Below are positions 1-64,000 of a DNA stretch of 64,000 nt, one piece after another. Location of the stretch: positions 1 to 64,000 of the forward strand of contig JAPLTF010000055.1 in NCBI GenBank assembly GCA_026398275.1. Reading direction: 5' to 3'. The first letter of the stretch is position 1; each line of letters opens with the position of its first letter. Under the pieces are notes generated by a model. It was given only the letters and a program-made list of their open reading frames with translations. It had not been told where the DNA came from and ran no database searches. Made by a program: the position numbers and the translations under genes. Source of the stretch: Verrucomicrobiota bacterium. GTDB lineage: Bacteria > Verrucomicrobiota > Verrucomicrobiia > Chthoniobacterales > Terrimicrobiaceae.

Positions 1-90
1 AACGAGTCTCCGCTCATTACGGAGTCGTTCTTGCGGATAGGCCCTCACGGGCAGCCCGCGTCTTATGAACGGCAAACACACCACCTTTTT

Positions 91-1014: not shown

Positions 1015-1018
1015 AATT

Positions 1019-1786: not shown

Positions 1787-1836
1787 GGAACCAGTAGTGG
1801 TGAGGTGATTTGCATTGGTGGTAGTCAGAAGGAGAC

Positions 1837-2178: not shown

Positions 2179-2184
2179 GGGTGT

Positions 2185-4283: not shown

Positions 4284-4327
4284 GGGCTTCTTGGTTGGAG
4301 AGTATGAATCACAAGTCTCAACGGATT

Positions 4328-6346: not shown

Positions 6347-6381
6347 GGTGTGGTTGGAAGCTTGCTCTGTTGTTTACTGCC

Positions 6382-7392: not shown

Positions 7393-7397
7393 CGTGA

Positions 7398-8174: not shown

Positions 8175-8201
8175 TTTTTGTTCTGTGGGTTGAGGGTGAT
8201 T

Positions 8202-9341: not shown

Positions 9342-9375
9342 GGGTGATGCGTCTGTCAGGAAAAGGCCGCTTGCT

Positions 9376-14088: not shown

Positions 14089-14690
14089 ACTTTGGAGAGG
14101 CATCGGAAGACGGCTTCGCCATACATCACGCTCGACGCGGGAGTGAGGTGGATGCCGTCCGTGTGGAGGGCGGCGCGAAAGTCCGGGCCCAACTCGGAGG
14201 GAAGATCGAGAAGAGGCACCTTGAGCCGACGAGCGAGCTTCTTTAGTTCCGCCCGATGGCCCTTGAGGTTCTCCACGATGCTGCGTCCATTTCCTTGGGT
14301 GTGCTGGTCGGGAAGGGCCAGAAGCGGGTGGTTGTTGACGAAGACGGGCGTCCCTCCCCCGGCGCGGATGAATGTCACCATCGCCTCCATTTGCGCGAGG
14401 TAACCGGCCACATCGTTCCGGGGTTTCGTTGACCAGGGGTTCACATAGGCGTCGTTGATTCCGAACTCCAACAAGACCAAGGCAGGCAGCAACGGGCCGA
14501 CATCCGTGATGATCCGATCCATGCCAATCGCGGAGGTGATTCCTCCGAGCCCTCGACAATAGACCTCAATGAGCGGCTGGCCGCCTGCGTTCAGACGCGA
14601 GGCGAGCACAGCAGGCCAATGGAAGCTGACCGGAAGATCGGCCGGATTGGTGATCGAGTCGCCGAAGCAGATGATGCGCTGATGTTTCAT
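14085..14690 (-). CDS. SGNH/GDSL-type esterase (cytoplasmic)
   Basis: A 201-residue SGNH hydrolase lacking a signal peptide. Block I is IICFGDSITNPADLP (catalytic Ser). Block II glycine lies in YCRGLGGITSA, block III is LLEFGINDAY (Gly and Asn of GxND), and block V is DGIHLTP (Asp and His). All catalytic residues are present. It overlaps both neighbours by ATGA, so it is part of one translated unit between a GH29 fucosidase and a six-hairpin protein. It probably deacetylates imported oligosaccharides. Confidence 0.88.
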   Translation of the reverse strand: MKHQRIICFGDSITNPADLPVSFHWPAVLASRLNAGGQPLIEVYCRGLGGITSAIGMDRIITDVGPLLPALVLLEFGINDAYVNPWSTKPRNDVAGYLAQMEAMVTFIRAGGGTPVFVNNHPLLALPDQHTQGNGRSIVENLKGHRAELKKLARRLKVPLLDLPSELGPDFRAALHTDGIHLTPASSVMYGEAVFRCLSKV

Positions 14691-16054
14691 GGATTCTCCC
14701 AAACCACCTTGACCACCTCACCGAGCGACGACAGCCGGCAGAGCGGGAGTTCAAATTGGAAGCCGTCGGCGGTCGGCATCCATGAGATCGTTTCACCGAA
14801 CCGCAGAAGAGTGACGTTCTGTGGGCGCCGTGGATCTTTCACTTCCACGACGCCGTCCCACACCCAGCTTAGGTGCAAATACCAGACATCGTCCCGGCAG
14901 GTGACCGGCACATTGCAGCGTTCCGGCCATGGACCCGGCGTGACATTTTCGACGGATTCCCGGCTGTGCTCCATCCAAGCCGCGAGTTCCTCCATCCGTT
15001 TGTAGGCGACGGGGGGCAGTTCTCCGTGGGCGTTCGGCGCCATGTTGAGCAGGAAATTTCCACCCCACGCACGAACCCGCGCCAGTTCGGCGAGAACCCA
15101 CCCCGTGGGTTTGTAGATTTCGCTCGTGCGATAGGCCCAACCGCCTTCGTTCCAGACGTGACACTCTTCCCACCAACCGGTCGGGCGCGTCTTCGGGAAA
15201 ATCCCCTCCGGCGTGATGTAATCCCCGAAGCCCATGCGATCGTTCATGACGATCCCGGGCTGAAGTTTCTGAATATGCGCCTTGGTGATGGCATCGGGCT
15301 CCGCGCCATCAAACCAAAGGATGTCGATCTTCCCGTATTGCGTCAGGAGTTCCTCAAGCTGGTTGCGGCAGAATGCCTTGAATCCCTGGCTCCAGGCCTG
15401 TCGTTCCTCGTCGGTCATTGTCGGCAGGACCACCTCCTCGTGGTGCACTCCGAGAAACGGCTCGTGCATGCTCTGCCCGTCAACGTGGCCGCCCTGGCCG
15501 TAGCGGAAGCTCATGTGCTCGCGGTTGTAATACCAATCGGGCATGGAGAAATAGAGCCCGACCTTCAGTCCGTGGCGGCGGCACGCCTCGACATATTCGC
15601 GGACGAGGTCGCGTCCGCCGAGGTTGGTGCGGGTGCCGAGGTCTCCATATTGGCTGGGCCACAGAGCGTAACCATCGTGATGCTTGGTGGTGAGAACCGC
15701 ATAGGTGAAACCGGCGCGCTTGGCGGCGGCGAGCCACTTGTCCGGATCGTAGCGATCGCAAGTGAACCCATCCACCTGCGCCCAGTAGTCTGCGGGTGAA
15801 AAGATCCTCCCGGGGCCCTGCGGTCCGATTTGTTCCAAACACTGACGCTGGGCGCCGCGCGGTGGACGGAGCATGCTCCAGGAGAGATCCCCCTCGCCCA
15901 GGACACTCGAAATTCCCCAACTAATGAAGAGCCCGAGTCCGGCGTTCCCGAACCATTGGGCCTCCGGATGGTTTGTCCGTTCATTGCCAGTGGCGAGGGC
16001 CTGGTTGCCGATCATCTCGTGCTGTCGGCCGACTTCGATGGTTTCCAAACTCAT
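14687..16054 (-). CDS. GH29 alpha-L-fucosidase
   Basis: A 455-residue GH29 enzyme. GLGLFISWG sits near residue 40, the pocket histidines lie in LTTKHHDGYALWPS near 122, and the nucleophile is Asp249 in KIDILWFDGAEPD. NFLLNMAPNAHGELP is the canonical late strand, followed by a short C-terminal beta domain. Between residues 170 and 215 is an insertion (DWYYNREHMSFRYGQGGHVDG) common in GH29 enzymes with extended pockets. No signal peptide is seen, so the likely site is cytoplasmic. The start ATG 16054 lies 23 bases after the heparinase-like gene. Confidence 0.92.
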   Translation of the reverse strand: MSLETIEVGRQHEMIGNQALATGNERTNHPEAQWFGNAGLGLFISWGISSVLGEGDLSWSMLRPPRGAQRQCLEQIGPQGPGRIFSPADYWAQVDGFTCDRYDPDKWLAAAKRAGFTYAVLTTKHHDGYALWPSQYGDLGTRTNLGGRDLVREYVEACRRHGLKVGLYFSMPDWYYNREHMSFRYGQGGHVDGQSMHEPFLGVHHEEVVLPTMTDEERQAWSQGFKAFCRNQLEELLTQYGKIDILWFDGAEPDAITKAHIQKLQPGIVMNDRMGFGDYITPEGIFPKTRPTGWWEECHVWNEGGWAYRTSEIYKPTGWVLAELARVRAWGGNFLLNMAPNAHGELPPVAYKRMEELAAWMEHSRESVENVTPGPWPERCNVPVTCRDDVWYLHLSWVWDGVVEVKDPRRPQNVTLLRFGETISWMPTADGFQFELPLCRLSSLGEVVKVVWENP

Positions 16055-16077
16055 ATTTTTTATCCGTTGCGGGCGTG

Positions 16078-18054
16078 TTACTTGACTTGCAGCTCCAGAT
16101 CTTGCGTCCGGGCTTTTGCTGCTTTCCTCACTGACACCTCGGCCTGTGCGGGACAAAGCGACATCGTGAGCTTGAGCGCCGCCACGGGCTGCGAACTTTG
16201 AACGACGATGCAGGGATGCAAGTGGTCGTGAACCGCCTCCGCATAGGTGCGATCCAGGATGGTGTTGTCCGGCATCTGCTCCACGCTAACTGTGATCGCT
16301 TCGGAGCCTTCCAGACCGATCGTGGCATCCGCCCAGGCCACCGTCCAACGACGGCCCTCGCCGGTGATTTTCAGCGCGCCATCCGTGCCCAGATGCCAGC
16401 GAAAGAGAACGACCTGCGGGCGGGTTTCGGGCACCAGCACCTCGTCGGTTACGGACAGATGATCGTCATTCCATGAGACGGTGCGTTCCCATTTCTTGAG
16501 ATTGTCGTAGCGACCGGTGGCGTTGAGGGTGACCTCGCCGCCCTTTGCATCGAGCCGTTTGACCGCCAAGGGAACGGTCGGACGACCACCGGCCTTCTGC
16601 CAGCCGGGAAGGGCGACGGGTGAGGAAATCGGGGCCGACGGGACGGGTTCCGTGCCGAGCTGCAGGACGTTGTGCGCGGCACCCGACTGGTAGAGCCGGG
16701 CTAGCGGGTTTTCATAATTCGGGGTGCCGGAATCGATCAGCAGGAGCCGTCCGCGATGGGTGAAGCTGACATGCCCGCGGTCGGCGTGATCGTGGGTGTC
16801 CTGCGCGTGACCGCCACGAATCCAGAGTCCGGTGGCGTCATCCGCCCAGCTATCCCGCCACTGCACACGCGTTGCTTTCTTGTAGTGGGCAAAAAGCGGG
16901 GGAGCGGCCTCGTCGCCTACGGGAGGGAGGGTGAGAAAGATCAAACCGGCAAGATCCGGGAGAGGTTCATCGAAAAGACGATCGAGAGCCCACCTCGCTG
17001 TCGGGTCCTTGGTGAGGGCGGCAAAAGCCGAGAGCATGGTGAGGACCTCGTGGGCGCTATTCGACTCGGAGGCGTTGATTTCCTGCCCATTCCTGATCCG
17101 CTCACACCGGCGGGGAATGGCTGCGGGGCCGCTGTTGAAGCAGTTGATGCTCCGGCGGCCCGGCTGGATATGGCCGACATACCATTTGGTGAAGTTCCCC
17201 AGGAACGGATGGCTGATCAAACGATCATCGCCGTGGAGTGACATCGCGTGTGCCGTGCGCAGCAGGCAATTCACGGTGAACCCGCCGTAATGGAACCCCT
17301 CGCTGAACTCGCCCTCGACTCCGCAGGCATCCAGCGTGGTGAGCAGGTGGCGCACGCCGAGTTCATATTCTTCGCGGAAGGACTCCCGTCCGCAAAGGAG
17401 ACACGCCCTGACGAGGCCCTCCAGTGGACAGGCCCATTGGTTGCTGTGCGGGTAAAGTTCGCTGACCCACCAGCTCCGCTGGGTCTTCCAGTCGTTGACC
17501 ACGCGCGGGATCTCCTTTTCAAGGACCGCCAACAAGCCGGCACGCAACTTTGGAGAAACGGATTCAGGCGGCAGTATCTCCAGCGTGTCATAAATCGCCC
17601 GCGCACCCAGGCCGGTCGCCAGCCAGACATCATAGACACCCCAGTTTCCGGCAAATGGCCGCTGCAGCGGTGACCAGGTTGTCATCTCTTCCAGTTGACC
17701 CAGGGTGCGCTCAAGAAACAAAGGATCCCCGCTGATCTGGTAAGCGCTGGCGAGCAAGGGAAGCTCCTCGGTCAAGTTCCAGCATTGGCCGAAGTCGGAC
17801 ATGGCCAGGAGTTGCTTGGCGGACTCCGCCCGATCCTCATCGGGATGATTGTCGAGATAGGCTTGGTTTAGGTGGGTGCGGTGCTGGCCGAGCTCTGCCA
17901 TGGAATAGACCCGCCGCATCACCCCTTTCGCCGCCTTGCCGCGGGCTTCCGCGAGGAGCAGCTCTTTCGGCTCGGCCAGATCCATCCGGGCTTTGAGGCC
18001 TTCCACCATTTCGCCCCAGGAGGCCAGCTCACCGTTGTTCCGTTGGTCGTGCAT
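16078..18054 (-). CDS. Heparinase II/III-like protein
   Basis: A 658-residue protein with an alpha-toroid N-terminal half (for example SDFGQCWNLTEELPLLASAYQISGD and the SELYPHSNQWACPLEGLVRA helix) and a C-terminal beta-sandwich beginning around residue 400. The heparinase II/III motif HDHADRGHVSFTHRGRLLLIDSGTPNYEN is clear. Characterised relatives are polysaccharide lyases of uronic-acid glycans, but many members are uncharacterised. No signal peptide is apparent. The start ATG 18054 is 4 bases downstream of the pseudopilin stop. A lyase acting on uronate-containing fucoglycan is possible, not shown. Confidence 0.8.
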   Translation of the reverse strand: MHDQRNNGELASWGEMVEGLKARMDLAEPKELLLAEARGKAAKGVMRRVYSMAELGQHRTHLNQAYLDNHPDEDRAESAKQLLAMSDFGQCWNLTEELPLLASAYQISGDPLFLERTLGQLEEMTTWSPLQRPFAGNWGVYDVWLATGLGARAIYDTLEILPPESVSPKLRAGLLAVLEKEIPRVVNDWKTQRSWWVSELYPHSNQWACPLEGLVRACLLCGRESFREEYELGVRHLLTTLDACGVEGEFSEGFHYGGFTVNCLLRTAHAMSLHGDDRLISHPFLGNFTKWYVGHIQPGRRSINCFNSGPAAIPRRCERIRNGQEINASESNSAHEVLTMLSAFAALTKDPTARWALDRLFDEPLPDLAGLIFLTLPPVGDEAAPPLFAHYKKATRVQWRDSWADDATGLWIRGGHAQDTHDHADRGHVSFTHRGRLLLIDSGTPNYENPLARLYQSGAAHNVLQLGTEPVPSAPISSPVALPGWQKAGGRPTVPLAVKRLDAKGGEVTLNATGRYDNLKKWERTVSWNDDHLSVTDEVLVPETRPQVVLFRWHLGTDGALKITGEGRRWTVAWADATIGLEGSEAITVSVEQMPDNTILDRTYAEAVHDHLHPCIVVQSSQPVAALKLTMSLCPAQAEVSVRKAAKARTQDLELQVK

Positions 18055-18058
18055 ATTG

Positions 18059-18763
18059 TTATGGCCTCGGCATCCAAGGCGGTATTTGCCAAGCGGTTCC
18101 GCCGGGCGGGACTTGGGCGTCATTCGTCGGATCCAGTGCCTCCACATGGCCGTCGTAAAAGAGCACGTTCGCCTTGCCATCATGTCGGCCGTGCAACCAA
18201 CCCCTTGGATTGTTCACGAACCCGGAGAGACTTCGCGCCCGGGTGGCCGGATCCGCTCCGCGACCATCGCCGATGAAGAAAACTTTGGATGGGTCGTTCA
18301 TTGTGGCAAGTTTGTAGGACGTTTGTGATTTCGCGAATCCCCACGAGTAGCTCTCCAAACCATCGTTGATCATTCCGTTGATCGCGTAATCAGAAGACCA
18401 GCTACCGACCAAGAAACTGGACTCGGAACAGGCAAGAGCCCCGGGTGGCCGCTGGCCGGCCTTGGGGGCGGAGCTTCCGAGGTAAGGAAGAAGGGCGTTC
18501 ACCCAAACGACCGTTCCGGAGGGATGAAACTGCTGGACAGCCCACCCGTTGTTGTCCTGACTCCAACCCATCGACGCGGTGTAAAGTTGCTTCAAGTTCC
18601 CTGCGCACTTGGCGGACTTCGCCTTGGCCAAGCCACCCATAACGGCCGGAACCACGAAGGCCGCGAGGACGCCGGTGATGGCCAGGACAACCAACAACTC
18701 GGTCAGCGTGAAGGCGGCCGCCCCGGGTCTGGCCGGAGAAAGTGGGCGAAGGTGGCTGTTCAT
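18059..18763 (-). CDS. Type II secretion pseudopilin-like protein (prepilin N-methylation, H-X9-DG)
   Basis: A 234-residue protein. The prepilin cleavage/methylation motif AAFTLTELLVVLAITGVLAAFVVPAV starts near residue 16 and forms the single N-terminal helix. Near the C terminus KANVLFYDGHVEALDP is the H-X9-DG signature of the PVC-specific DUF1559-type family. The products are exported and assembled or anchored by type IV pilin-like machinery; their purpose is unknown. Its ATG overlaps the stop of the upstream LamG gene by one base (TAATG). A second copy of the family lies at 48297-49022. Confidence 0.88.
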   Translation of the reverse strand: MNSHLRPLSPARPGAAAFTLTELLVVLAITGVLAAFVVPAVMGGLAKAKSAKCAGNLKQLYTASMGWSQDNNGWAVQQFHPSGTVVWVNALLPYLGSSAPKAGQRPPGALACSESSFLVGSWSSDYAINGMINDGLESYSWGFAKSQTSYKLATMNDPSKVFFIGDGRGADPATRARSLSGFVNNPRGWLHGRHDGKANVLFYDGHVEALDPTNDAQVPPGGTAWQIPPWMPRP

Positions 18764-20289
18764 TACTTGGCGGCGTCGCTGATGCCGGTATCCCGGTCGC
18801 AATGAAGAAGGAGAACAGTCTTGTCGTCCCGAACGAACGGTCCCGTTTCTTCGCCGGAGGGAGCGCGCACCACACTAGAAATCCGAATCTCGTCGAGCAG
18901 TCCCGCATAAGGGGCCACGAGTTTACCCTGGCCCACGCCGCCGATGCCGAGCGCCTTGCCCCGGCAAGTGGTGGGGGTGGTATAGGGTGCGGTTCCTTCG
19001 CTGTTGCCATCCACGAACAATTCGATCTTGCCGCCCGACACGCTGTAAGTGGCCATGACATGATGCCATCCGTCACCGATCAGGCTGGAGTTGACGCTCG
19101 CGCCGGCGGTGCCGTTGTAGACTGAATAAGAGAGCTTCCGCGTCTCTCCATCGATCATAAGGATCTGGTAGGTCCACGGGTCGGCACCATCGATGCGGAA
19201 GATGTTCGCTGTCGTATTGAAAGTTGTTGCCAGATAGATCCAGCATTCCATCGTGCCCTCGTTGTCATCCATGTCCAGATCCGGGACGAGCAGCCCATCG
19301 GCGACGCCATCGAAGCTGAGCGCCTGCCCGTGCTTGCCGGCGGAGAACTTGGGGGCACCGAGGACCTGCACGCCGCTGCCGAGGCTGATTTCGCGCGGGT
19401 TGCCCGTCCAGAGGGGCGCCGTCAGCCCGCCGTCAGCTGTCGTAGCCTTGAACAGGAGACGGTTGGGCTTGACCATCTCTCCGGTCTTCAGATTGGGCAT
19501 GAGGAGAGATTTCGCGACCAAGGTGGCGGTCCAGACTTTCTTCGAGGCGTCTGCCGCCTCCAGCGCGATGCTCGTCTGGCCATTCAGTGACACCGGGCTG
19601 AGCATATAGCTGTCAAAAAACTCGACCGTCGCGCTCGCCGCGGGCTCGGCCAGAGTCAGGGTGATGGTCAGTGGATCATTGGGCTCAAGACGTTTCTTTT
19701 CGTCGAATGCGGGGGATGTGATGGCAAGGTTGTTCTCGGGTTCCGCGACCATCCGCAGATCCTTGATGGTCAGCGCGACGTTATGGACATTCATCGAAAC
19801 AGCCACGCTGCCCGTAGCCCAATCGGGATCCTGCTGATAAGGGTTGAAGATGAAAGTGCCCTCCGGAATGGCACCGACCACTTGCAACCTTGTGACCTTC
19901 TGGGAGGCCGGTCCGACCGTCAGCTCATGGTAGCCCTGGCCCAGCACGACATCCTCGACCTTCCAGACGAGATAGGGAAAATCCGGGCTGAAAGGCACCT
20001 TGACCGCCGTGAAAACACGTTCGCCGCTGGCACTGATCCGCATGCCACCTTGATCGCCCGTGGTGATGTCGGGGTAGAGCCCACCGCTTAGCCACATCTC
20101 CCCGGCCTGCCAGCCAAGGTCGGTCCAGTAGTCGGTGCCGTCCGGTTGAACGGTCTGCACACTCTGACCGCTTTCCGCCCAAAGCGTGTTGGAATCCGGG
20201 TTTTTGGCGATCTGGGCCTGCAGGGATGCTCCCAACAACATCAAGGTGAGAGGCGTTAGGGTGAGGACGCGTTGGATGGTATTTTTCAT
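18763..20289 (-). CDS. Secreted LamG/concanavalin A-like domain protein
   Basis: A 508-residue exported protein. The signal peptide is MKNTIQRVLTLTPLTLMLLGASLQAQ. Residues ~30-190 look like a carbohydrate-binding jelly roll, and residues ~310-490 form a LamG-like fold with QALSFDGVADGLLVPD, GTMECWIYLATT, DGWHHVMATYS and LLDEIRISSVVRAPSGEE. A purine-rich GGGAGA ribosome site precedes ATG 20289. It probably binds glycans outside the cytoplasm. It is coupled to the downstream pseudopilin gene. Confidence 0.85.
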   Translation of the reverse strand: MKNTIQRVLTLTPLTLMLLGASLQAQIAKNPDSNTLWAESGQSVQTVQPDGTDYWTDLGWQAGEMWLSGGLYPDITTGDQGGMRISASGERVFTAVKVPFSPDFPYLVWKVEDVVLGQGYHELTVGPASQKVTRLQVVGAIPEGTFIFNPYQQDPDWATGSVAVSMNVHNVALTIKDLRMVAEPENNLAITSPAFDEKKRLEPNDPLTITLTLAEPAASATVEFFDSYMLSPVSLNGQTSIALEAADASKKVWTATLVAKSLLMPNLKTGEMVKPNRLLFKATTADGGLTAPLWTGNPREISLGSGVQVLGAPKFSAGKHGQALSFDGVADGLLVPDLDMDDNEGTMECWIYLATTFNTTANIFRIDGADPWTYQILMIDGETRKLSYSVYNGTAGASVNSSLIGDGWHHVMATYSVSGGKIELFVDGNSEGTAPYTTPTTCRGKALGIGGVGQGKLVAPYAGLLDEIRISSVVRAPSGEETGPFVRDDKTVLLLHCDRDTGISDAAK

Positions 20290-54161: not shown

Positions 54162-54788
54162 TCAGGCTGGCAGCAGTTTGAGCAGATCGTCGTGCGGGCG
54201 GGCGATCACCTGCGCGGCGATGAGCTTTCCGAGGCTGCCGACGGCCTCCGAGCCGGCATCGAGCGCAGCCTTCACGGCGGCGACGTCTCCCTTGATGATG
54301 ATCGTGACATAGGCGGCGCCGATTTTTTCCTTGCCGACGAGTTCGACATTGGCGGCTTTGAGCATGGCGTCGGTGGCGTGGAGGATGGCCGTGAGGCCCT
54401 GGGTTTCGAGGATTCCGATGGCTTGTGGTTTCATAATGGCTAGGTGGATTTTGTGGTCGGTGGGAAGCAGGTATTCGCGGCCGCCGTAGAGCGGGTTGAT
54501 GGAATTGGGCCTGGAGAGGGCGCCGGCGAGTTCGGTGGATGGAGCGTCCAGGATGGTCGAGGAGACCAGAGCGGAGCCGAGCGACTTTATGCGCGCCTCG
54601 GCGGCACCCAGGGCCGAGCGAATGGACCCGGGATCGCCTGAGAAGCGAGAGAGGATCACCTCGGTGCCAATCGGTTCTAGGCCAAGCAGGACGACATCCC
54701 CCGCCTTGAGCGCAGCGTCGCATGCCAGCGCAGTCACGCTTAGAAACGGCGTCTCCAGCAGTCCGAGGCTCTGAAGCCGATCGCTCAT
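54162..54788 (-). CDS. Bacterial microcompartment shell protein with two BMC domains
   Basis: A 208-residue protein with two BMC domains: residues ~5-90 (LGLLETPFLSVTALACDAALKAGDVVLLGLEPIG) and ~121-205 (IGILETQGLTAILHATDAMLKAANVELVGKEKIGAAYVTIIIKGDVAAVKAALDAG, ending VIARPHDDLLKLLP). They are joined by a ~28-residue linker containing NSINPLYGGREYLLP. Tandem BMC proteins form trimers (pseudohexamers) in protein shells around enzymes that make toxic aldehydes. Domain 2 looks like a complete canonical BMC-H. An internal ATG at 54434 could start it separately. The start at 54788 overlaps the aldolase stop (ATGA). No BMC-P gene is visible in the window. Confidence 0.93.
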   Translation of the reverse strand: MSDRLQSLGLLETPFLSVTALACDAALKAGDVVLLGLEPIGTEVILSRFSGDPGSIRSALGAAEARIKSLGSALVSSTILDAPSTELAGALSRPNSINPLYGGREYLLPTDHKIHLAIMKPQAIGILETQGLTAILHATDAMLKAANVELVGKEKIGAAYVTIIIKGDVAAVKAALDAGSEAVGSLGKLIAAQVIARPHDDLLKLLPA

Positions 54789-55771
54789 GGGACGCGTTTG
54801 TTGATGCGGGCGAGCATGGCAGCGACATCCGGCTTCGCGGCCTGGCAAGACTTTGCGGCCTCTTGAAAACCACACTCGGTGAGCAGGCAGGCCAGCTTGG
54901 TGCTGATGGCGTTAAAGTGCTCCATCTCGTGCGGGCTCATCGGCTGTGGGCCCCGCCCTGTGTTGAACCCGCGGAGGTTGACGCCCTCGCGAAATCCCTC
55001 GGGGAAGTTGCCCGCTGCAAACATCGTCTTGATCAGTTCGAGCAGCTTAAACTGAATGCGTTTGGCTTCGGCCAGATCTCCTTTCAGAAAGCTGTTATAG
55101 AGCTTCATGACGGCTTCCGGCGCTACGCCGCTGGTGGCGATCGTGCCGCCGTCGGCTCCCATCATCAGCACCGGCAGCAGGATTTCCTCCGTGCCGATGA
55201 GGCAGGAAAAATCCGGGCGCAACGGCTTGACCTCGTTCAGAGTGTCCATGAAACGCGGCATGTCGCGACTGCTGTCTTTGATGCCGACAATGCGCGGGCA
55301 GTCGGAGGCAAGGCGCTTGACAACCTCCAGGCTGATCTCGTTGGAGAACTGCGGGATGTTGTAGAGGACGAGGTCGATTGGCGACTTGGCGGCCAGCTCG
55401 CGGAAGTAGTGCTCGATGCTCTGCTGGCTGACTTTGAAATAATACGGCCCGGTCACCGAGACCGCCCGGCAGCCGAGATCTGCGTAGCGTTTGCAGGCTT
55501 CGAGCACCATCGCGATATTCGGCTCGGCCGCGCCGGCGAGAATCGGCACGCGACCTTTCGTTTCGTCTGCGATGATCTCGACGACCCGCAGGCGTTCCTC
55601 GAAGCTCAGGCGGATGAATTCGCCCGTGCTGCCGTTGGGATAAAGGCCGGTGACGCCTTTGTCGATCAGCCACGAGACATAGCGGCGGAGTTCGCCCTCG
55701 TTGATGCGGTGGTCGTCGTGGAATGGAACCACATTTGGCGTGTAGATGCCTTTGATGATTTCTTTTGTCAT
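54785..55771 (-). CDS. DHDPS/NAL-family 2-keto-3-deoxy-aldonate aldolase
   Basis: A 328-residue class I aldolase of the dihydrodipicolinate synthase / N-acetylneuraminate lyase family. NGSTGE (residues 46-51) binds the pyruvate carboxylate, Tyr137 lies in LYNIPQFS, and the Schiff-base Lys165 in IVGIKDSSRD. In this context it probably splits a 2-keto-3-deoxy sugar acid into pyruvate and an aldehyde; with a 6-deoxyhexonate that aldehyde is lactaldehyde. DHDPS or KDG aldolase roles are alternatives. It overlaps both neighbours by ATGA, placing aldolase and shell protein in one coupled unit. Confidence 0.88.
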   Translation of the reverse strand: MTKEIIKGIYTPNVVPFHDDHRINEGELRRYVSWLIDKGVTGLYPNGSTGEFIRLSFEERLRVVEIIADETKGRVPILAGAAEPNIAMVLEACKRYADLGCRAVSVTGPYYFKVSQQSIEHYFRELAAKSPIDLVLYNIPQFSNEISLEVVKRLASDCPRIVGIKDSSRDMPRFMDTLNEVKPLRPDFSCLIGTEEILLPVLMMGADGGTIATSGVAPEAVMKLYNSFLKGDLAEAKRIQFKLLELIKTMFAAGNFPEGFREGVNLRGFNTGRGPQPMSPHEMEHFNAISTKLACLLTECGFQEAAKSCQAAKPDVAAMLARINKRVP

Positions 55772-56634
55772 AGATTTTCTTGAACAGGCAGGTTTGTCTG
55801 CCAGCGGAAAAGTCCGCCGGATTGCGGATGCCTGGCTAGCTTGTCCTGATCGAGCCCGAGACGCGAGGTTGTGATGAAGAGATCGCCGCTGCCGCCGAAA
55901 CAACAGGAGGTCGTATGCGGGCAGCCGGTGTCGATGCACTGCAGGAGTTGCCCGTTCTTCGGGTCCCACTGGCACACGCATCCCGGGCCCCAGTGGGCGA
56001 CCCAGAGTGTGTCGTCCGCTCCGAGCGCCATGCCGTCGGGCAGGCCGAGTTCCTCCGGCACCTGCACCACCGTGCGCTTGTTGGAGATCGAGGAGTCGGC
56101 GGGATCGAAATCAAACGCCCAAACCTCGCGGGCGGCGGAGTCGGTGAAGAACATGGTCCGATTGTCGGGTGTCCAGTCCATGCCGTTGGAGATGGTGAGG
56201 TTGTCGAGCACGTGGGTGAGTTGGTTGCCTTCATCGAGACGGTAGAGGCTCCCTGCACCGGGAACGGAACCATCATTCGACATCGTGCCGATCCAGAAAC
56301 GTCCGGCTGGGTCCATCTTGCCGTCGTTGCACCGATTGCCGGGAAGGTCCGTTTCTACCGAGGCAACTTCCCGCACATCGCCCGCAGCCAGATCGACCGA
56401 GACCAGACGTTTGGCCAAGGCAATGAGGTGGCGGTCATTCCCTTCCGGCACGACCACGCAGACCGGTTCTGCAAATGGATGACTGACGACTTTGGTCGTG
56501 ACCGGATCGAAGCTGTTGACTCTGCGTTCAATCATGTCCACCCAAAGCAGGCGCTGGAGAGCGGCATCCCAACAGGGGCCTTCCCCGTGGGTGCTGCGGA
56601 TGTCGGCAACGAGTGTGGCGTTTGCTTTTTTCAT
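55768..56634 (-). CDS. SMP-30/gluconolactonase-family sugar lactonase
   Basis: A 288-residue six-bladed beta-propeller of the SMP-30/gluconolactonase/LRE family. HGEGPCWDAALQRLLWVDM carries the metal-binding Glu; NRCNDGKMDPAGRFWIGTM, the substrate and metal Asn/Asp; and SNGMDWTPDNRTMFFTDS, the last metal site. It opens sugar 1,4-lactones to aldonates. This gives the operon two lactonases of unrelated folds (see 60390-61232). The start ATG 56634 lies 11 bases after the dehydratase gene. Confidence 0.9.
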   Translation of the reverse strand: MKKANATLVADIRSTHGEGPCWDAALQRLLWVDMIERRVNSFDPVTTKVVSHPFAEPVCVVVPEGNDRHLIALAKRLVSVDLAAGDVREVASVETDLPGNRCNDGKMDPAGRFWIGTMSNDGSVPGAGSLYRLDEGNQLTHVLDNLTISNGMDWTPDNRTMFFTDSAAREVWAFDFDPADSSISNKRTVVQVPEELGLPDGMALGADDTLWVAHWGPGCVCQWDPKNGQLLQCIDTGCPHTTSCCFGGSGDLFITTSRLGLDQDKLARHPQSGGLFRWQTNLPVQENL

Positions 56635-56645
56635 CCGTGTCGATT

Positions 56646-57824
56646 TTACCAGTCGGCGACAGCGCCGTCGGGGGTAAAGCTGCGGCGCAGGATTTCTTGC
56701 TCAAAGGGATGTTTGCGCACCTCGGCCTCGTTGATCTCGATGCCAAGGCCCGGTTTGGAGCTGGGCCGGGCAATTTGACCTTTGGCTTCAATGGTGAAGC
56801 CGGCCTGGACGATGTCATCGCGCCACGGCACGTCATTGCGCACGGATTCACAAATGAGATAGCTCGGCGTGGCAAATCCGAACTCGAGCGATGCAGCCGT
56901 GCTGACTGGACCTTGCGGATTGTGCGGCGCAATCGCAACGCGATACGCCTCGGCCAGCGCGGCGATCCGGCGGGCCTCGGTGAGACCGCCGCAATGGGTG
57001 ATGTCGGGCTGAAGGATGCTGGCGGCCCCTTTTTGGAGCAAATCGCGGAATCCATGGAGTCCAGTGATGCGTTCGCCCGTGGCGATTGGGGTTCCGACGG
57101 CGCGCTGGATGTCCGCCATTGCGTCGGGCGCTTCCGGCCAGCAAACCTCCTCGAGAAAGTAGAGCCCGAAGGGTTCGAGCGCCCGGGCAAACTGCATCCC
57201 CATGCGGGGCGAGGGCCGGGCGTGGCAATCGACCATCACATCAATGTCCGGCCCAACCGCCTCGCGGATCGCCGCGACACACGAGACGGCGTAATTGATG
57301 GGGCGCAACCCCTCAATCGGCGCGGTCTCCGGCACGGCCATGCATTTGAACGCGGTGTAGCCATCTTCCACGCTTTGCAGGGCGAGTTCGGCGAAGCGTT
57401 TCGCGTCACCGGGTGCGGTCAGATAAAAATCCTCCATCTTTCCGCCGCCCAGATGGCTGTAGGTTCGGATGAAGTCGCGCACCGGCCCACCCCAGAGCCG
57501 GTGGCAGGGAACGTTGTGGATCTTGCCCATGATATCCCACAACGCGAGGTCGATGCCCGCAATCGCCGTGGCCCGCACGATGCCGTTGCCGTGCCAGAAG
57601 TGCTGCCGGAACATCATCTGCCAAAGGTGCTCCACCCGCGTCGGGTCCTCGCCCACAATGAGCTGGGAAACGTCTTCGATCGCGCCGATCACTGACCGCG
57701 TGTGCCATTCCAGCGTCGCCTCACCCCAACCGTAAAGCCCGGGCTGATCGGTCAGGACCTTGACGAAGATCCAATTGCGCATCCGTGCGTTGCAGACCAA
57801 CGTTTCAATCTTGGTAATTTTCAT
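56646..57824 (-). CDS. Enolase-superfamily sugar-acid dehydratase (D-galactonate dehydratase-like)
   Basis: A 392-residue enolase-superfamily enzyme. Metal ligands are Asp199 (VMVDCHARP), Glu225 (FLEEVCW) and Glu251 (ATGER). The acid/base residues His201 and His301 (APHNPQGP) are present. QPDITHCGG precedes the last strands. It removes water from an aldonate to give a 2-keto-3-deoxy-aldonate, the substrate of the downstream aldolase. ATG 57824 overlaps the SDR stop. It is paralogous to 8202-9341, but the two modules differ in downstream enzymes. Confidence 0.9.
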
Positions 57825-58630
57825 TGGCTGGTGATGGCCTTTGACGCATACGGCTCGCGGCTGACCAGCAGACTTGTCATGCCGAGGTCCGCAAAGATGT
57901 TCGTGCCGGTGATGCACGACGAATCTTCCGAGAGAAGGAAAACACAGCATCGGGCGACTTCTTCTGGAGTGACGAGGCGCTTGCCGGGGATGTTGGCATT
58001 CCAGTAGTCGAGACACTCCTGCTCGCTGGGAGCTGCGGCGACGATGTCCTTCCAGATTTCCGTGGCGCAGAGGCCGGGGGAGAGAATATTGACGCGGATG
58101 CCGAGCGGCGCGAGTTCGACGGCGGCCGCCTTGCTGAAGCCGACCATGCCGTGTTTGGCGGCATCGTAGGGCGCGGCACCCGCGAGCGAGGCGTGGGTGT
58201 GGACGCTGGCGATTTGAACGATGGATCCGCCCCCGCCCTGGCTCTTCATCTGGCGCGCACAAATCTGGGTGAGGAGAAATGACCCGGTGAGATCGACGTC
58301 GAGCACCCGCTGCCATTCTTTGAGGTCCACTTCGAGGAAGGGTTTCACGTAGTTGACGCCGGCGTTGTTGATAAGACCGTCAATGCGTCCGAAGCGGGCA
58401 ACCGAGCACCCGACGAGGGCCTCCAAGTGGGCGGGGTTGCTCATGTCGGTGACGACAACCTCGACCTTCCCGCCGTTGGCGGCGATGCGCTTTGCAACGG
58501 AATCGAGTTCCGGCTTCGAGCGGGCAGCAATGACGACATTCGCGCCTTCGCGGGCGCATTCTTCGGCCATGGCGACGCCGAGGCCTTTGCTGGCTCCGGT
58601 GATGATGATGACTTTGTTTTGTAGTTTCAT
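57821..58630 (-). CDS. SDR-family dehydrogenase with C-terminal SREPYASK extension
   Basis: A 269-residue classical [11 protein letters not shown] at residues 11-18, NNAG at 88-91, Ser142, Tyr155, Lys159. The usual SDR end ([11 protein letters not shown]) is followed by [16 protein letters not shown] (residues 254-269). The same extension, [14 protein letters not shown], ends the AllA-like cupin at 61397-61924, a protein of different fold. The SDR probably oxidises the deoxysugar to its lactone or acts on a 2-keto-3-deoxy acid. It overlaps both neighbours by ATGA. Confidence 0.88.
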
Positions 58631-59583
58631 GGGGTTGTGTGGTTGATCCATTGGTTTTTCCAGTCGGAGAATTCGGAGTCGGACAAAAGCATGAGCCGCG
58701 TGGTGGCGACTTCCGCGAAGCTTTGCGGTCCGATGCCGCAGCGCAGGGCAGGCGAGCGGTGTTCGAGTTCGCCGAAGCCGCCAAAGCTGCCATCGTCGCA
58801 GAAGAACTGGAGCGCGTCACCCTGCGTATCGAGGGCGTCAAGCGGAGAGTCGCAGTAGAACAATTCCGGATAAACCGGGAAGGAGCGCGCAAGAACCAGT
58901 TGGCCGCCCTGCACCGGACGTGCGTAGGCGACGCGTCCGGCCGAGTGTGCGGCAGAGATGCCGGTTTTGAAAATCGCAAGGCCGCGGATGTGGATTTCCG
59001 TGTGAGTCGGATGCACCGACAATTCGCTCGGGGGTGTGGGGCTGAAATAGTCGCGCGGCACCGCGCGGCCAACGCTCGGAATCAGCAGGCTGCCGCCTGA
59101 ACGGATTTGCAGCAGCGACCAAAAATCCACCGGCTGGCCGGGCGTGCCATCGAGGATTTCCATGCCGGTGCAAGTGCGCAGGGCGATGCCTGACCCAGGC
59201 GCGGCAAGATCCTCCACCGGCAGCAATTCGACCGAGCGCGTGAGACGGACCGTCAAATGCGCGTCGCGGTGCGGCGAGCGGACTGCGATGTCCACCGACC
59301 CGGAGAAGAATCCGTCGCGTGATTGTTCGACCGACCAGATGTCCGGGTCGAGGGCCGGCGGCACTTTGTAGTGCGCGAAGTCCGGCGTGCCGAGACGCTG
59401 CCAGTGCCAATCAGCTTCGGGACCAATCCAAAGGCGCTCGCCGCCGAGGTTCCATGCGGCGGTCACTTCCGGTGGCGACCAAAGGGCTTGGTGTCCTGCG
59501 ACCTCGATGCCGAGGACTCGTCCGCGTTCGGGGCTGATGCTCACCGAGCCCGATTCAGTTTTCCATGTGGTGGGAGTGTTCAT
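58627..59583 (-). CDS. Beta-sandwich protein, possibly aldose-1-epimerase-like (hypothetical)
   Basis: A 318-residue protein with all-beta character. GHQALWSPPEVTAAWNLGGERLWIGPEADWHWQRLG resembles the GGxRLWxxPE region of mutarotase-like domains of unknown function (DUF6786-type, from memory). No catalytic histidine pair is obvious to me. The protein may interconvert sugar anomers before dehydrogenation. Its ATG at 59583 is 6 bases after the second SDR stop. Function not established. Confidence 0.55.
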   Translation of the reverse strand: MNTPTTWKTESGSVSISPERGRVLGIEVAGHQALWSPPEVTAAWNLGGERLWIGPEADWHWQRLGTPDFAHYKVPPALDPDIWSVEQSRDGFFSGSVDIAVRSPHRDAHLTVRLTRSVELLPVEDLAAPGSGIALRTCTGMEILDGTPGQPVDFWSLLQIRSGGSLLIPSVGRAVPRDYFSPTPPSELSVHPTHTEIHIRGLAIFKTGISAAHSAGRVAYARPVQGGQLVLARSFPVYPELFYCDSPLDALDTQGDALQFFCDDGSFGGFGELEHRSPALRCGIGPQSFAEVATTRLMLLSDSEFSDWKNQWINHTTP

Positions 59584-59589
59584 GGTGAG

Positions 59590-60360
59590 CTAATCCGATC
59601 CGGCGATGACGGCCGTTTCGCCGAGGCCTTCCGGCCCCATCGAGCAATAGCCGCCATCGATCATGAGGGTCGTGCCCGTGATGAACGAGGCGTCATCGCT
59701 CAGGAGAAAAAGCGTCGGGCGGGCGACTTCGATCGCCTGGCCCATGCGGCGGAGCATGTGGTATTTCCCCCAGATCGCATCCCACTTGGCGCGGCCGCCC
59801 CCATCCATGTTCGCGGCCTTGTCGGTCTCGTTCGACCAGATCCAGCCGGGATCGACGTTGTTCACGCGGATGTTGAAGGGCGCGAGGTCGAGCGCCTGGC
59901 ATTTCGTGAGCTGGTTGACGGCGCCTTTGGCGGCGTTGTAGGTCCAGCGGTTCACCTGGGCGATGTGGCCGGAAATGCTCGACATGTTGACGATGGAACC
60001 ACCGCCGGCTTTTTGCATGGGCGGAACCACGTTTTGCACCATGCGGGCATAGGCGAGCGGACCGGCCGTGAAGCTGCGCATCCAGTCATTCGTGGTCGCG
60101 TCGAGCGCCTTGGCCGTGGCGCAGAACTCCTCGTTTGCCATGTCCCCGCGGAGAAACGTTGTGGTGTAACCGGCCGCATGGAATTCTTCCTGCGATTTCT
60201 CTCCGGCCGCGCTGATGCCGGTGAAGAGGACCTTGCCTCCTTCCTTGCAGAATTCTTCAACGATGGATCGCCCGAGACCGGAGGAGCCCCCGGTGACGAT
60301 GGCAACTTTGTTTGCAAACCGGTCTGCGACCGGCTTGTGGGATGGGATCGGTGTGTGCAT
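59590..60360 (-). CDS. SDR-family protein lacking the NNAG segment
   Basis: A 256-residue SDR with TGGSSGLG (residues 23-30), a catalytic-type serine at 127-128 (NMSSISGH), Tyr141 and Lys145, and a normal end (TGTTLMIDGGY). The segment that should hold beta-strand 4 and NNAG is missing: GDMANEEFC runs directly into ATAKALDATTNDW. About 20-25 residues appear deleted in frame. The two other SDRs in the window have NNAG. Either a real deletion has crippled it, or it works in a complex with a partner SDR. Confidence 0.8.
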   Translation of the reverse strand: MHTPIPSHKPVADRFANKVAIVTGGSSGLGRSIVEEFCKEGGKVLFTGISAAGEKSQEEFHAAGYTTTFLRGDMANEEFCATAKALDATTNDWMRSFTAGPLAYARMVQNVVPPMQKAGGGSIVNMSSISGHIAQVNRWTYNAAKGAVNQLTKCQALDLAPFNIRVNNVDPGWIWSNETDKAANMDGGGRAKWDAIWGKYHMLRRMGQAIEVARPTLFLLSDDASFITGTTLMIDGGYCSMGPEGLGETAVIAGSD

Positions 60361-60389: not shown

Positions 60390-61232
60390 TTATAGGCGGT
60401 AAAAACGGGCTGCGTTGTCGTGGAAAATCTTCTGCTGCGAGTCCCCGCCGAGCCCTGCGGTCAGCTCACGGGCGGTCTCGAACCAGCGCTGCCACGAAGA
60501 GGCGCGCAGGGCATGCGGCCAGTCACTCGCCCAAATTATCCGATCCGGACCGAAGATTTCGATGACCGCATCCGCAAACGGACGCAGATCCTCGATCGTC
60601 CAATTTTCGAGGTCGGCATTGCAGACGAGGTTGGAGAATTTGCAAGGGTGTGGGCCCGACGCGGCGAAAGCGCGAAGGTCATCCTTCCACGGCTGGAGCC
60701 GTCCCTCCGCGATGTTTGGAGAGCCGATGTGGTCGAGGATGAACTTCGTGCCCGGGCTGGCCTCGATCAATTTCATCACGTTGGGGAAATTCCGCGGCCC
60801 GATCGTCAGTTCGCAATGCAGGCCGACTTCGCCCAGGAGTTGCACGCCGCGGACAAAGCCCGGCTGGATGCAGAAATCGATGTTTTCCTCGAACTCGATG
60901 ATACGCCGCACGCCCTTCACGCGGGGATCGGCGGCGATGGCCCGCAGCGCTTCGGCCACGGCCTCACCATCTTCAAGCGGCGCCCACGGGACGATGGCCT
61001 TGAGCCGGGGATCGCGGTCGGCCAGCGATTGCACCCAGGCCAGCTCGTCGCGGTATTGGTCCGGGCGGCATTCGCACTGGACAAAGACCACGGCCTTGAC
61101 CGCGGTGCCGCCGCGCGCTTTCTCGTAGTCGGAGAGAAGATACGTGCGGTTGATGGCCGGGACGTTGGCCAGCCAGGGGTAATCCAGCCGGTCGATATCC
61201 CAGAGGTGAATGTGGGCGTCGATGATTTTCAT
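60390..61232 (-). CDS. COG3618-type amidohydrolase, L-fuconolactonase-like
   Basis: A 280-residue amidohydrolase-superfamily barrel. MKIIDAHIHLWD gives the two metal-binding histidines (7 and 9); ILDHIG (middle) and WASDWPH (near 245) supply further ligands including the conserved Asp. The family includes L-fucono-1,5-lactonase and L-rhamnono-lactonase, which open the lactone after sugar dehydrogenation. It fits the step between SDR and dehydratase here. It is 29 bases upstream of the SDR lacking NNAG. Confidence 0.85.
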   Translation of the reverse strand: MKIIDAHIHLWDIDRLDYPWLANVPAINRTYLLSDYEKARGGTAVKAVVFVQCECRPDQYRDELAWVQSLADRDPRLKAIVPWAPLEDGEAVAEALRAIAADPRVKGVRRIIEFEENIDFCIQPGFVRGVQLLGEVGLHCELTIGPRNFPNVMKLIEASPGTKFILDHIGSPNIAEGRLQPWKDDLRAFAASGPHPCKFSNLVCNADLENWTIEDLRPFADAVIEIFGPDRIIWASDWPHALRASSWQRWFETARELTAGLGGDSQQKIFHDNAARFYRL

Positions 61233-61396: not shown

Positions 61397-61924
61397 TCAG
61401 GTGATGGGTTTGGAAGCGTAAGGCTCGCGGCTGATCAGCAGGCAATCGTCCCCCTCCAGGACAATGGTCCGGGTGTCATTGGCGTAGGTTCGTTCCGGCA
61501 GGGCGACCAGGATATTTGCCGGTTCGCTTCCGAGGCAGAACGGCCCGTGATGCCAGGTGCCCGGCTTGATCACGACCATGGTGCCGTTCGGAACGAGGAA
61601 TGCCCGGACTTTCTCAGCGGGGAATCCCGCGTCCGGAACGGACGCCGGAGCAAACCACATCAGCACGTCCGCATCGAGCGGCATGAGCATCTCCGCGGTG
61701 GAGGAGTGGCATTCCACCACGTTGATCACAGGTTCGCGCGGCCCGATGCGGCAGTTCGAGTAGGATGCAGCCTGGCAGTTGCCGAGCGCCTGCTGGATCA
61801 TGTCAGGAAAGAACTCGATCGGCGGCGCTCCGAGCATTTCGGACACGGGGTTCAGCATGTCACGAAAGCCGCCGAATTCCTGGAAGCTTTCGGGCGTCAA
61901 TGGCTCAACGGGAACTGTTTTCAT
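61397..61924 (-). CDS. AllA-like (ureidoglycolate lyase family) cupin with C-terminal SREPYASK extension
   Basis: A 175-residue cupin of the ureidoglycolate lyase (AllA) family: VPVEPLTPESFQEFGGF at the start, NVVECHSSTAEMLMPLDADVLMWFAPAS, and MVVIKPGTWHHGPFCLG with the metal-type histidines. No purine or allantoin genes are near, so a role with sugar-derived acids is more likely. Its last 14 residues, [14 protein letters not shown] (162-175), are shared with the SDR at 57821-58630. It overlaps glcF by ATGA. Confidence 0.82.
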   Translation of the reverse strand: MKTVPVEPLTPESFQEFGGFRDMLNPVSEMLGAPPIEFFPDMIQQALGNCQAASYSNCRIGPREPVINVVECHSSTAEMLMPLDADVLMWFAPASVPDAGFPAEKVRAFLVPNGTMVVIKPGTWHHGPFCLGSEPANILVALPERTYANDTRTIVLEGDDCLLISREPYASKPIT

Positions 61925-63102
61925 TTGGATGGTCTGCAATTGGGGTCCAGGAGTTGAATGACGTGGGCGACACGGAAGGGGCGTTTGACCAGCGACTTTG
62001 CGGAGTTCCACTGCATCATGCAGACATGGTTCGATGTGGCAAGGATGATGGGATCGCCTTCGGCTTCGTTGAGGAAGGCGGATTTCTTGGCGAGGATTTC
62101 GCGGGCGTTTTTAGGCTTTTGGATGTTGTAGATCCCGCCCGATCCGCAGCAATCCTTGGCGCATGGGGCGAGTTCCCACTGGTAACCGGTGGCATCGAGA
62201 ACAGCGGCCGGAATGCCGGGCGAGCGTTGCCCATGGACCAAATGGCAGGGGAGATCAACATAGACCCTTCCCCCCCGAGGTTCGCGTGCCTTGATGCCGA
62301 TCTCCCCAAGAAATTCGAGCACGTCGCGAACCGGCATGTCCGGCGCGAGCGTCTTTTTCAGCGCCAGCCCGCATCCCGCGGAATTGCTCACGGCCGCATC
62401 CACCGCGAGCGGCAGGAAGGCCCGGCGGTTCTGCTCGCGCAGCTCGTCCACGCCGTCCAGGCCGGTGTGCTCATGGAATGCTCCGCAGCAGCCCTGTTCA
62501 TCGGGGATCACGACCTGGATGTTGTTGTCAATGAGCACCCGCACGGTGGCGAAATTGATCTCCCGGAACATCGCCTCCATCAGGCACCCTGTCAGCAGAG
62601 CCACTCGCGGGCCGGTCGGCTTATGGAGCATCATTAAGCGCCGCGCATAAGCGGCGGTGGATTCCGTGACGTGAGGGCGTCCGGGGAAAATGAGCGGATG
62701 GGGGAAAAATCCCAGCGAGCGCAACGCCCGCGCGGGAGCCAGCGCGGCATTGAATAGCGCGGGATACCGGACCGCCTGGGCGGCAAGCCGGAGCTCGGGT
62801 TTCGGATGAAACCGTCCGGCGGAAACGTGCTCGTGGCGGGTTTGCTCGAGAATGTCTCCATACGCCACGCCTGCCGGGCAGACCGGTTCGCACGCGAGGC
62901 AGCCGACGCATTCGGATGTGTAGAAATCTGTCTCCGGGTCGCGCGCAAGCCTGCCAGCCGCCTCCTCCCTCCAGAGCCGGAGCCGTCCGCGCGGCGAATT
63001 ATTTTCATCGCCGGTGAGCCGGTAGGTCGGGCAAACCTCCAGGCAGAACCCGCAGTGGACACAGGTCGAGAGGAGATCCTTTTCAAGGAGTGGGTGACTC
63101 AT
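61921..63102 (-). CDS. glcF: Glycolate/lactate oxidase iron-sulfur subunit GlcF
   Basis: A 393-residue GlcF-type protein. Two 4Fe-4S ligand sets: C14-x2-C17-x2-C20-x3-C24 (CVHCGFCLEVCP) and C65-x2-C68-x2-C71-x3-C75 (CVGCLACEPVCP). Two CCG domains follow (EQGCCGAFHEHTG and KDCCGSGGIYNIQKP). It passes electrons from an FAD subunit oxidising 2-hydroxy acids (glycolate, lactate) to the quinone pool. ATG 63102 overlaps the glcE-like stop. In this operon it may oxidise lactate derived from lactaldehyde. Confidence 0.92.
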   Translation of the reverse strand: MSHPLLEKDLLSTCVHCGFCLEVCPTYRLTGDENNSPRGRLRLWREEAAGRLARDPETDFYTSECVGCLACEPVCPAGVAYGDILEQTRHEHVSAGRFHPKPELRLAAQAVRYPALFNAALAPARALRSLGFFPHPLIFPGRPHVTESTAAYARRLMMLHKPTGPRVALLTGCLMEAMFREINFATVRVLIDNNIQVVIPDEQGCCGAFHEHTGLDGVDELREQNRRAFLPLAVDAAVSNSAGCGLALKKTLAPDMPVRDVLEFLGEIGIKAREPRGGRVYVDLPCHLVHGQRSPGIPAAVLDATGYQWELAPCAKDCCGSGGIYNIQKPKNAREILAKKSAFLNEAEGDPIILATSNHVCMMQWNSAKSLVKRPFRVAHVIQLLDPNCRPSK

Positions 63103-64000
63103 GAGATGTTCCATTCTTTGCGCAAGGTGGAGATCCATGAGGCTTCGAGCGGCGACGGGCTGGGGCTCACATGCCGGCTCTGCCAATGGCCGCCCATGGC
63201 GTGCAGGGCGGATTCGATGGGACGGACGATTTCGCCGATGGCACCGCTGTCCGGAAGAAAAACATGAACCACCCCGCACGAGCAGAGTGCGACGCACTTT
63301 GCGCCGGGGTGCTTCGCGAGGGAGAGGGCCGTGTCGGCCACGAACTCGGGAGTGGTTTTCACGACCAGATCCGGGCAGCCGTCGAGGGCCGGGCCTGCCG
63401 CAGGTTCCAGCGCCAGAGAGAATTTCTTTGAGAATGCAGATAGGAAATCCTGATAGGCCTCGAATTCCAAGGCCGGGCAATGGACGGCAACGCGAAGGAA
63501 CGGGGAATCCCCCGCGACAAGATCCACCGAATCCAACCAATGCATCCACGTGGACTGGAGAAGTGATTTTAAGGCGGATCGCAAACAGGCGGCATCTCCG
63601 CGCAGACAAAAAACCCGCGAGGTGTCGCAGGCCGGCCGCAGGCGCAAAACGTAATCCATCGCGCGTCCGTAGCGGCTGCTGCTCGCAAGCAAAAACCGGA
63701 GGAGGTCGTATCCTGTGGTCGATTTGACCACGCGTTCGCCGACGCGCACCCGTCGTCCGTCGGGCAGCTCCCAGTTCATCCCGGTGATGTTGTCGCAATA
63801 GGGTCCGTATCGCGAGGAGGCCGGGGCAAACGGGCTGGACGCGACCTGCTCGCAGAGCGGGGTTGCACGGTCCAGGAGCAGCGGGAACCGCAGCCCGTGC
63901 GGCGATGCCTCGCGTTCGATGGCCGCCGCATCGCTCGTGGCGGACAGGCAGAGGACGCCGTCCACCGGATCCATGAAATGCTCAAAAAACCTTTCTTCCG
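63099..64000 (-). CDS. glcE: FAD-binding 2-hydroxyacid oxidase subunit (GlcE-like), partial
   Basis: The frame is open to the window edge, so the 5' end is not visible; about 300 residues are seen. DPVDGVLCLSATSDAAAIEREASPHGLRFPLLLDRATPLCEQVASSPFAPASSRYGPYCDNITGMNWELPDGRRVRVGERVVKSTTGYDLLRFLL is the FAD-binding 4 (PCMH) type motif block, and the remainder is the short cap of GlcE. An initiator ATG inside the visible part (63974) is possible but less likely. Translationally coupled to glcF by ATGA. The main GlcD-like subunit may lie upstream beyond 64000. Confidence 0.8.
   Translation of the reverse strand, partial: EERFFEHFMDPVDGVLCLSATSDAAAIEREASPHGLRFPLLLDRATPLCEQVASSPFAPASSRYGPYCDNITGMNWELPDGRRVRVGERVVKSTTGYDLLRFLLASSSRYGRAMDYVLRLRPACDTSRVFCLRGDAACLRSALKSLLQSTWMHWLDSVDLVAGDSPFLRVAVHCPALEFEAYQDFLSAFSKKFSLALEPAAGPALDGCPDLVVKTTPEFVADTALSLAKHPGAKCVALCSCGVVHVFLPDSGAIGEIVRPIESALHAMGGHWQSRHVSPSPSPLEASWISTLRKEWNIS

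Follow-up and report, generated by a model that had tools for sequence, protein, structure and literature searches.

A short-chain dehydrogenase gene with a probable recent 69-bp in-frame deletion in a presumed sugar-catabolic gene cluster of a Verrucomicrobiota bacterium

The window, the 64,000-nucleotide stretch of contig JAPLTF010000055.1 (assembly GCA_026398275.1) analysed here, carries towards its end a series of minus-strand genes among which lies that of the short-chain dehydrogenase (SDR) SDR2 (Table 1). SDR2 is encoded by a 256-codon open reading frame with an ATG start and no internal stop, and a recheck on the sequence found the coordinates, strand, intact frame and junction as the initial annotation had given them. 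The neighbouring amidohydrolase shows no gap of more than 2 residues against its homologues. The dehydratase, scored with a query lacking its first residues, reaches 310.1 bits where the cut-off is 311, and the ureidoglycolate lyase/DUF4867-like gene adjoins SDR2 in locus L057 too.

Table 1. Features of the gene cluster around SDR2 (window coordinates).
Feature	Coordinates	Strand	Remarks
Protein with two bacterial-microcompartment (BMC) shell domains	54162..54788	-	Start codon chosen here
DapA/KDG-aldolase family protein	54785..55771	-	Start codon chosen here; adjoins SDR2 in L028 and L029 too
SMP-30/gluconolactonase family protein	55768..56634	-	
Enolase-superfamily sugar-acid dehydratase, galactonate dehydratase-like	56646..57824	-	Start codon chosen here
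SDR1, second full-length SDR	57821..58651	-	NNAG present
DUF6786 protein	58627..59583	-	Begins 6 bp past the SDR2 stop codon
SDR2, NNAF/AGP short-chain dehydrogenase, presumed aldose-dehydrogenase family, internally deleted	59590..60360	-	256 aa
Junction of the 69-bp in-frame deletion, codon 81 (GCC, Ala)/codon 82 (ACG, Thr)	60117..60118	-	DNA compared with relatives
Amidohydrolase (Amidohydro_2), L-fucono-1,5-lactonase-like, presumed lactonase partner	60390..61232	-	NCBIfam 125.8 bits, cut-off 400
Ureidoglycolate lyase/DUF4867-like protein	61397..61924	-	Start codon chosen here; below NCBIfam cut-offs
GlcF-like Fe-S subunit (glycolate oxidase type)	61921..63114	-	Start codon chosen here
GlcE-like protein	63099..63974	-	Assigned by position and by a homologue that adjoins a GlcD-like gene in L029; itself without a Pfam match

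The cofactor motif TGxxxGxG is present in SDR2 as TGGSSGLG at residues 23-30, with T23, G24, G25, G28 and G30 invariant in a 20-row alignment of the family. Ser128, Tyr141 and Lys145, invariant in the same alignment, provide the catalytic Ser and the YxxxK motif, so that the earlier reading of a retained nucleotide motif and Ser-Tyr-Lys set is borne out. Pfam matches SDR2 to adh_short_C2 and to adh_short, each split over two stretches; the better stretch starts at residue 83 or 84, equivalent to profile position 87 or 92. No named family model was reached at its curated cut-off among the best 25 of 228 (intact homologue L028) or of 220 (SDR2) NCBIfam matches; against FucosDh, L028 scores 152.8 bits with a cut-off of 300.

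Between these motifs SDR2 is without the segment of strand beta4 and NNAG, at a place where its intact relatives carry NNAF. The junction reads GDMANEEFCA/TAKALDATTNDW, and 23 residues (69 bp) are gone, comprising beta4 in full, NNAFxF and the greater part of helix alphaD. In each of 18 pairwise alignments the gap is a single 23-residue block, the one with L061 having an extra 3-residue gap elsewhere; the in-frame deletion, one of two alternatives in the initial annotation, is supported. The AlphaFold2 model of L028 has a helix at residues 77-91 and a strand at 96-99, and the deletion corresponds to L028 residues 82-104, removing 10 of the 15 residues of alphaD. The absence of beta4 and NNAG reported earlier is therefore correct as to the missing segment, with the amendments that the family motif is NNAF (19/19 rows of SDR2 relatives) and that most of alphaD is lost too.

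The missing segment is retained by all 27 aligned homologous genes, which represent 26 distinct proteins (L036 is the same protein row as L035) and were compared in two multiple alignments of 15 and 12. All 24 intact rows share L, N, N, A, F and F within the 23 deleted columns. L042, a 38% partial match from outside the family, was dropped before counting. The codon and structure alignments were built without the duplicate row L036 and without L037, which contains unknown residues; L041 was excluded from the codon alignment and the pairwise gap survey, and L037 also from the latter. No homologue of the short length, such as the initial annotation had envisaged, occurs among the 27, and its suggestion of an unusual family variant does not hold. 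A family-wide short form was accordingly ruled out. That the whole family is a shorter or unusual SDR type without NNAG can be practically discounted: the motif does deviate (NNAF) and the Asn of the catalytic tetrad is Gly in all aligned rows, but every aligned homologue has the NNAF segment and the modelled intact L028 has beta4.

We also surveyed the SDR open reading frames of the compared loci with a pattern filter requiring the Gly motif and YxxxK, which 39 of 70 passed (the other 31 were left unjudged). Between the two motifs an NNA-like sequence was found in 36 of the 39 and NCAG in 2, and SDR2 alone had neither, so the gap is more than a chance feature. Nine other operon proteins, the MFS, BMC2, DapA, SMP-30, SDR1, AMH, UGL, GlcF and GlcE products, were compared with homologues matching at 1e-30, SDR1 with distant SDRs only (31-35%), and their largest gap was at most 6 residues; the dehydratase, GH42, LacI and DUF6786 proteins gave no row. 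Since all aligned homologues keep the segment and the neighbouring proteins have no comparable gaps, the lesion is best described as a private deletion and not a family variant.

The position of the tetrad Asn deserves separate description. In PMC10449147 this Asn is listed as one of four catalytic SDR residues, with the motif hNhxG, and according to PMC11926874 it takes part in a proton relay. In SDR2 the motif is lacking: alignment with 8eh2 places Gly100 at this position, and a Gly within an invariant GP is found there in 20/20 rows of the SDR2 family. It is a family-wide trait that the initial annotation missed. In SDR1 the position appears to be occupied by Asp (VLDVDLTG, read by eye). 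Presumed sugar dehydrogenases with Gly at the tetrad Asn deserve biochemistry, and we regard them as more interesting than the deletion.

With L028 as a stand-in for the ancestor, inspection by eye found no direct repeat longer than one base at the junction. With microhomology of one base at most, no repeat-mediated mechanism accounts for the deletion. The same observation bears on whether the deletion is an artefact, in which the gene is in fact full-length and assembly dropped 69 bp, or in which the assembly picked up a minority allele with the deletion from a mixed population. A skip made by the assembler is unlikely because no repeat of more than one base spans the junction, so that the flanks, judged against the L028 proxy, offer nothing to mislead a k-mer assembler; the loss is, moreover, precisely in frame and has no counterpart in the nine other operon proteins. 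On the other hand, SDR2 is the lone short copy among the aligned homologues, the rest of the gene is normally constrained (see below), and the source genome is a 98.68% complete draft in 117 contigs, its estimated contamination being 3.84%. We consider an artefact of either kind improbable, though it is the most serious of the alternatives.

Larger matches between window positions 1-20000 and other contigs of the source genome are 78-87% identical, and the same region matches the same-genus genomes G003 and G002, and not G001. A foreign or mis-binned contig thus appears unlikely from this sequence comparison, which covered only positions 1-20000. As a side observation, a GHL6-family gene at 4451-6332 has matches at four more places in the source genome (C16, C49, C47 and C106, the last in two pieces) with 79-85% DNA identity.

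The remaining part of the gene evolves as in intact relatives. The dN/dS ratio of SDR2 against L028 is 0.074, compared with 0.077-0.127 for pairs of intact genes, at a dS of about 1.08 that is near saturation. The excess of dN on the SDR2 branch over the L028 branch is 0.018 (bootstrap -0.008 to 0.049) when L029 serves as outgroup; using L043 instead gives -0.016 (-0.047 to 0.013). Of 100 sites that 90% or more of the other rows conserve, SDR2 has changed 4; its 24 relatives have changed 0-13 of 98-102 such sites. Neither the dN excess nor the conserved-site changes give a sign of relaxed selection on the SDR2 gene after the lesion. By our own estimate, which takes the upper end of the interval and places half of dS on the branch, a release from selection over more than roughly a tenth of the SDR2 branch should show. 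The lesion is therefore recent, polymorphic, an artefact or tolerated, and the lack of a dN excess implies that any loss of function in SDR2 is recent. Should the deletion be old, the SDR2 product is still useful; should it be an artefact, the gene is normal.

Structure prediction was carried out for SDR2 with an alignment including 19 relatives and for L028 with the same relatives and the SDR2 row omitted. The AlphaFold2 model of SDR2 has a mean pLDDT of 75.5 and a pTM of 0.78, compared with 86.5 and 0.86 for L028. In SDR2, pLDDT falls below 50 at the join (residues 77-87) and in the C-terminal tail (237-247 and 250-256), whereas in L028 it does so only in the C-terminal tail (262-279). Of the classical Rossmann fold with its seven-stranded sheet, the SDR2 model keeps the overall form with beta4 absent, and Foldseek still matches it to SDRs with a probability of 1.00. 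The top PDB match of both models is 2d1y_C, with a TM(target) of 0.74 and an rmsd of 4.0 for SDR2 against 0.92 and 1.9 for L028. A family alignment tends to draw a model toward the family fold, so this comparison is suggestive of, and not proof of, misfolding. According to PMC7065075, NNAG helps to stabilise the central sheet in classical SDRs.

The intact frame, the retained Ser-Tyr-Lys residues, a constraint like that of intact relatives and the presence of full-length SDR1 one gene further on would all suit a short protein retained as a functional variant, non-catalytic or regulatory, for example in a mixed oligomer with SDR1 or another SDR. We nevertheless hold this to be quite improbable. 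No other short form exists among the 27 homologous genes, the deleted block contains residues invariant in 24/24 rows, and the predicted model is poor at the join. A shift of function long ago would be expected to enrich changes at conserved sites, and those in SDR2 lie within the range of its relatives. The partner idea was further examined at the SDR2 loci, where no SDR1 orthologue was seen in the stretches of 20 of them; other SDRs, 27-34% identical to SDR1, were found at 7 of the 20. (Where matches overlapped, only the best query was kept, and the SDR1 count thus refers only to places without a better SDR2 match.) With no SDR1 orthologue at these loci, a conserved two-subunit SDR1/SDR2 enzyme is unsupported, and the proposal of the initial annotation that SDR2 partners the SDR at 57821 in a non-catalytic role gains no positive support. 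SDR1 scores 211.9 bits against the PRK07231 glucose 1-dehydrogenase model (cut-off 215); belonging to the same broad group, it could take over the first step, and a pathway relying on SDR1 alone, the other suggestion of the initial annotation, is possible.

The SDR2 family is sparsely distributed. At a threshold of 1e-60, and counting the source genome, it was found in 2 of 26 genomes of the taxonomic family, in at least 2 of 213 genomes of the order and in at least 13 of 387 sampled genomes of the phylum, the order and phylum counts being based on the first 6 or 12 candidates scored per genome. It was absent at 1e-60 from all three other genomes of the genus. This distribution suggests horizontal gain of the gene. 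No short form occurred in another genome among those with an SDR2 match. An intact second copy within the source genome was considered and rejected: no second family member was found there at an E value of 1e-60, and the next-best SDR elsewhere in the genome is 34% identical to SDR2. Separately, a Clostridiales stretch (L041, 5001-10768) contains six consecutive SDR2-related genes of 43-49% identity, the sixth truncated by the edge of the stretch.

Gene neighbours were recorded for 20 of the 27 homologous genes, leaving out L035 (the duplicate of L036), L048, L049, L050, L052, L053 and L054; several of the stretches are short, that of L055 extending 1.5 kb per side. In 13 of the 20 loci, a lactonase-like gene is found no more than 1.2 kb from the SDR2-family gene. 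The SDR of Arenibacter echinorum (L032) is flanked on one side by an amidohydrolase of this type and on the other by an IlvD/EDD dehydratase, after which comes a XylE-type transporter (735.6 bits, cut-off 608); the dehydratase is above the PRK06131 dihydroxy-acid dehydratase cut-off and reaches 846.4 bits with the L-arabinonate dehydratase model, the cut-off of which is 882. In L028 and L029 a DapA-type aldolase follows the SDR and GlcF lies upstream, L029 also having GlcD-like and GlcE-like genes, and in genome G011 a RhaT-like transporter adjoins the amidohydrolase. Lactonase, dehydratase and aldolase occur together only in the window, among loci with identified neighbours; L032 combines lactonase and dehydratase.

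The BMC gene of the window belongs to a recurring arrangement. A DapA-type aldolase gene beside a tandem-BMC-domain gene is found at 54162-55771 of the window, at 10771-12373 of L074 and at 1308-3017 of L038. The L074 cluster is on contig C116 of the source genome and also includes an SDR and a lactonase-like amidohydrolase, and L038, an Omnitrophota contig, likewise carries both the DapA-type aldolase and tandem-BMC-domain genes. Further BMC genes of the source genome are on C13 and C41. PMC8857213 describes microcompartments for fucose and rhamnose that include an AraD-like aldolase; this does not help to place SDR2. A microcompartment tied to a DapA-type aldolase may merit separate study.

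The gene neighbours allow us to propose a function for the intact enzyme. Non-phosphorylative pathways convert an aldose to a lactone, an acid, a 2-keto-3-deoxy acid and finally pyruvate and an aldehyde. Judged by its neighbours, the SDR2 family most likely consists of aldose 1-dehydrogenases. The intact enzyme would yield a lactone to be opened by the amidohydrolase, and the product could then pass through the dehydratase and the aldolase to a GlcDEF-type oxidase, as the neighbours suggest; the aldehyde or its acid might go to the oxidase and perhaps also to the microcompartment.

Taken together, these data lead us to regard SDR2 as probably the gene of a sugar (aldose) 1-dehydrogenase that has suffered a recent, lineage-private 69-bp in-frame deletion and has been inactivated by it. 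The lesion is private and removes conserved functional residues, as in a pseudogene or inactivated allele; the lack of relaxed selection agrees with this only for a recent lesion. With beta4 and NNA gone, the Rossmann core round the cofactor would probably be malformed and SDR2 unstable or inactive. The frame may have been kept by chance, as in one deletion in three; alternatively, it may have been kept because an in-frame lesion leaves the tightly spaced downstream genes translated. The source lineage would then have lost the entry step of the pathway, or another dehydrogenase may have assumed it. Two points speak against this reading: purifying selection is equally expected with a working short SDR2 or with an assembly error behind the deletion, and the SDR fold class survives the deletion in the predicted model.

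Inactivation being the preferred reading, the SDR2 gene should not be annotated as a working dehydrogenase, and the first step of the pathway is doubtful in the source genome; as a recent in-frame loss it carries little weight beyond annotation. It is very improbable that SDR2 without beta4, NNA and most of alphaD is a stable, selected subunit, non-catalytic or cofactor-sensing, of a microcompartment-linked pathway. If true, a stable and selected beta4-less form would mean that SDRs can lose the central strand of their Rossmann fold, which would be structurally surprising. A search by title in the open-licence literature found no naturally beta4-less SDR, which is no proof of absence.

Comparison with characterised SDRs places these features in context. 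With the classical SDR 8eh2_A, its best phmmer match, SDR2 shares the Gly-rich motif, the Ser, YxxxK and the C-terminal region up to GPEGL; the classical GxhDhhhNNAGh segment, as given in PMC10449147, is wholly absent from SDR2, and 8eh2 has Asn at the tetrad position where the SDR2 family has Gly. The Acinetobacter SDR of that study (8gbb/8eh2) itself deviates at NNAG, 8gbb having NLACT. Likewise, in the mycolic acid reductase Rv2509 (PMC7065075) NNAG is altered to CANAGT yet present, whereas in SDR2 it is deleted. The L-fucose, L-rhamnose and L-arabinose 1-dehydrogenases (FucosDh, RhamDHLra1) belong to the same superfamily, with 7wwx and 7do5 among the fold matches, although L028 differs from L-fucose 1-dehydrogenase in remaining below the FucosDh cut-off. 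The neighbours of the SDR2 family resemble those of non-phosphorylative sugar dehydrogenases, namely a lactonase-like amidohydrolase, a sugar-acid dehydratase, an aldolase and a sugar transporter.
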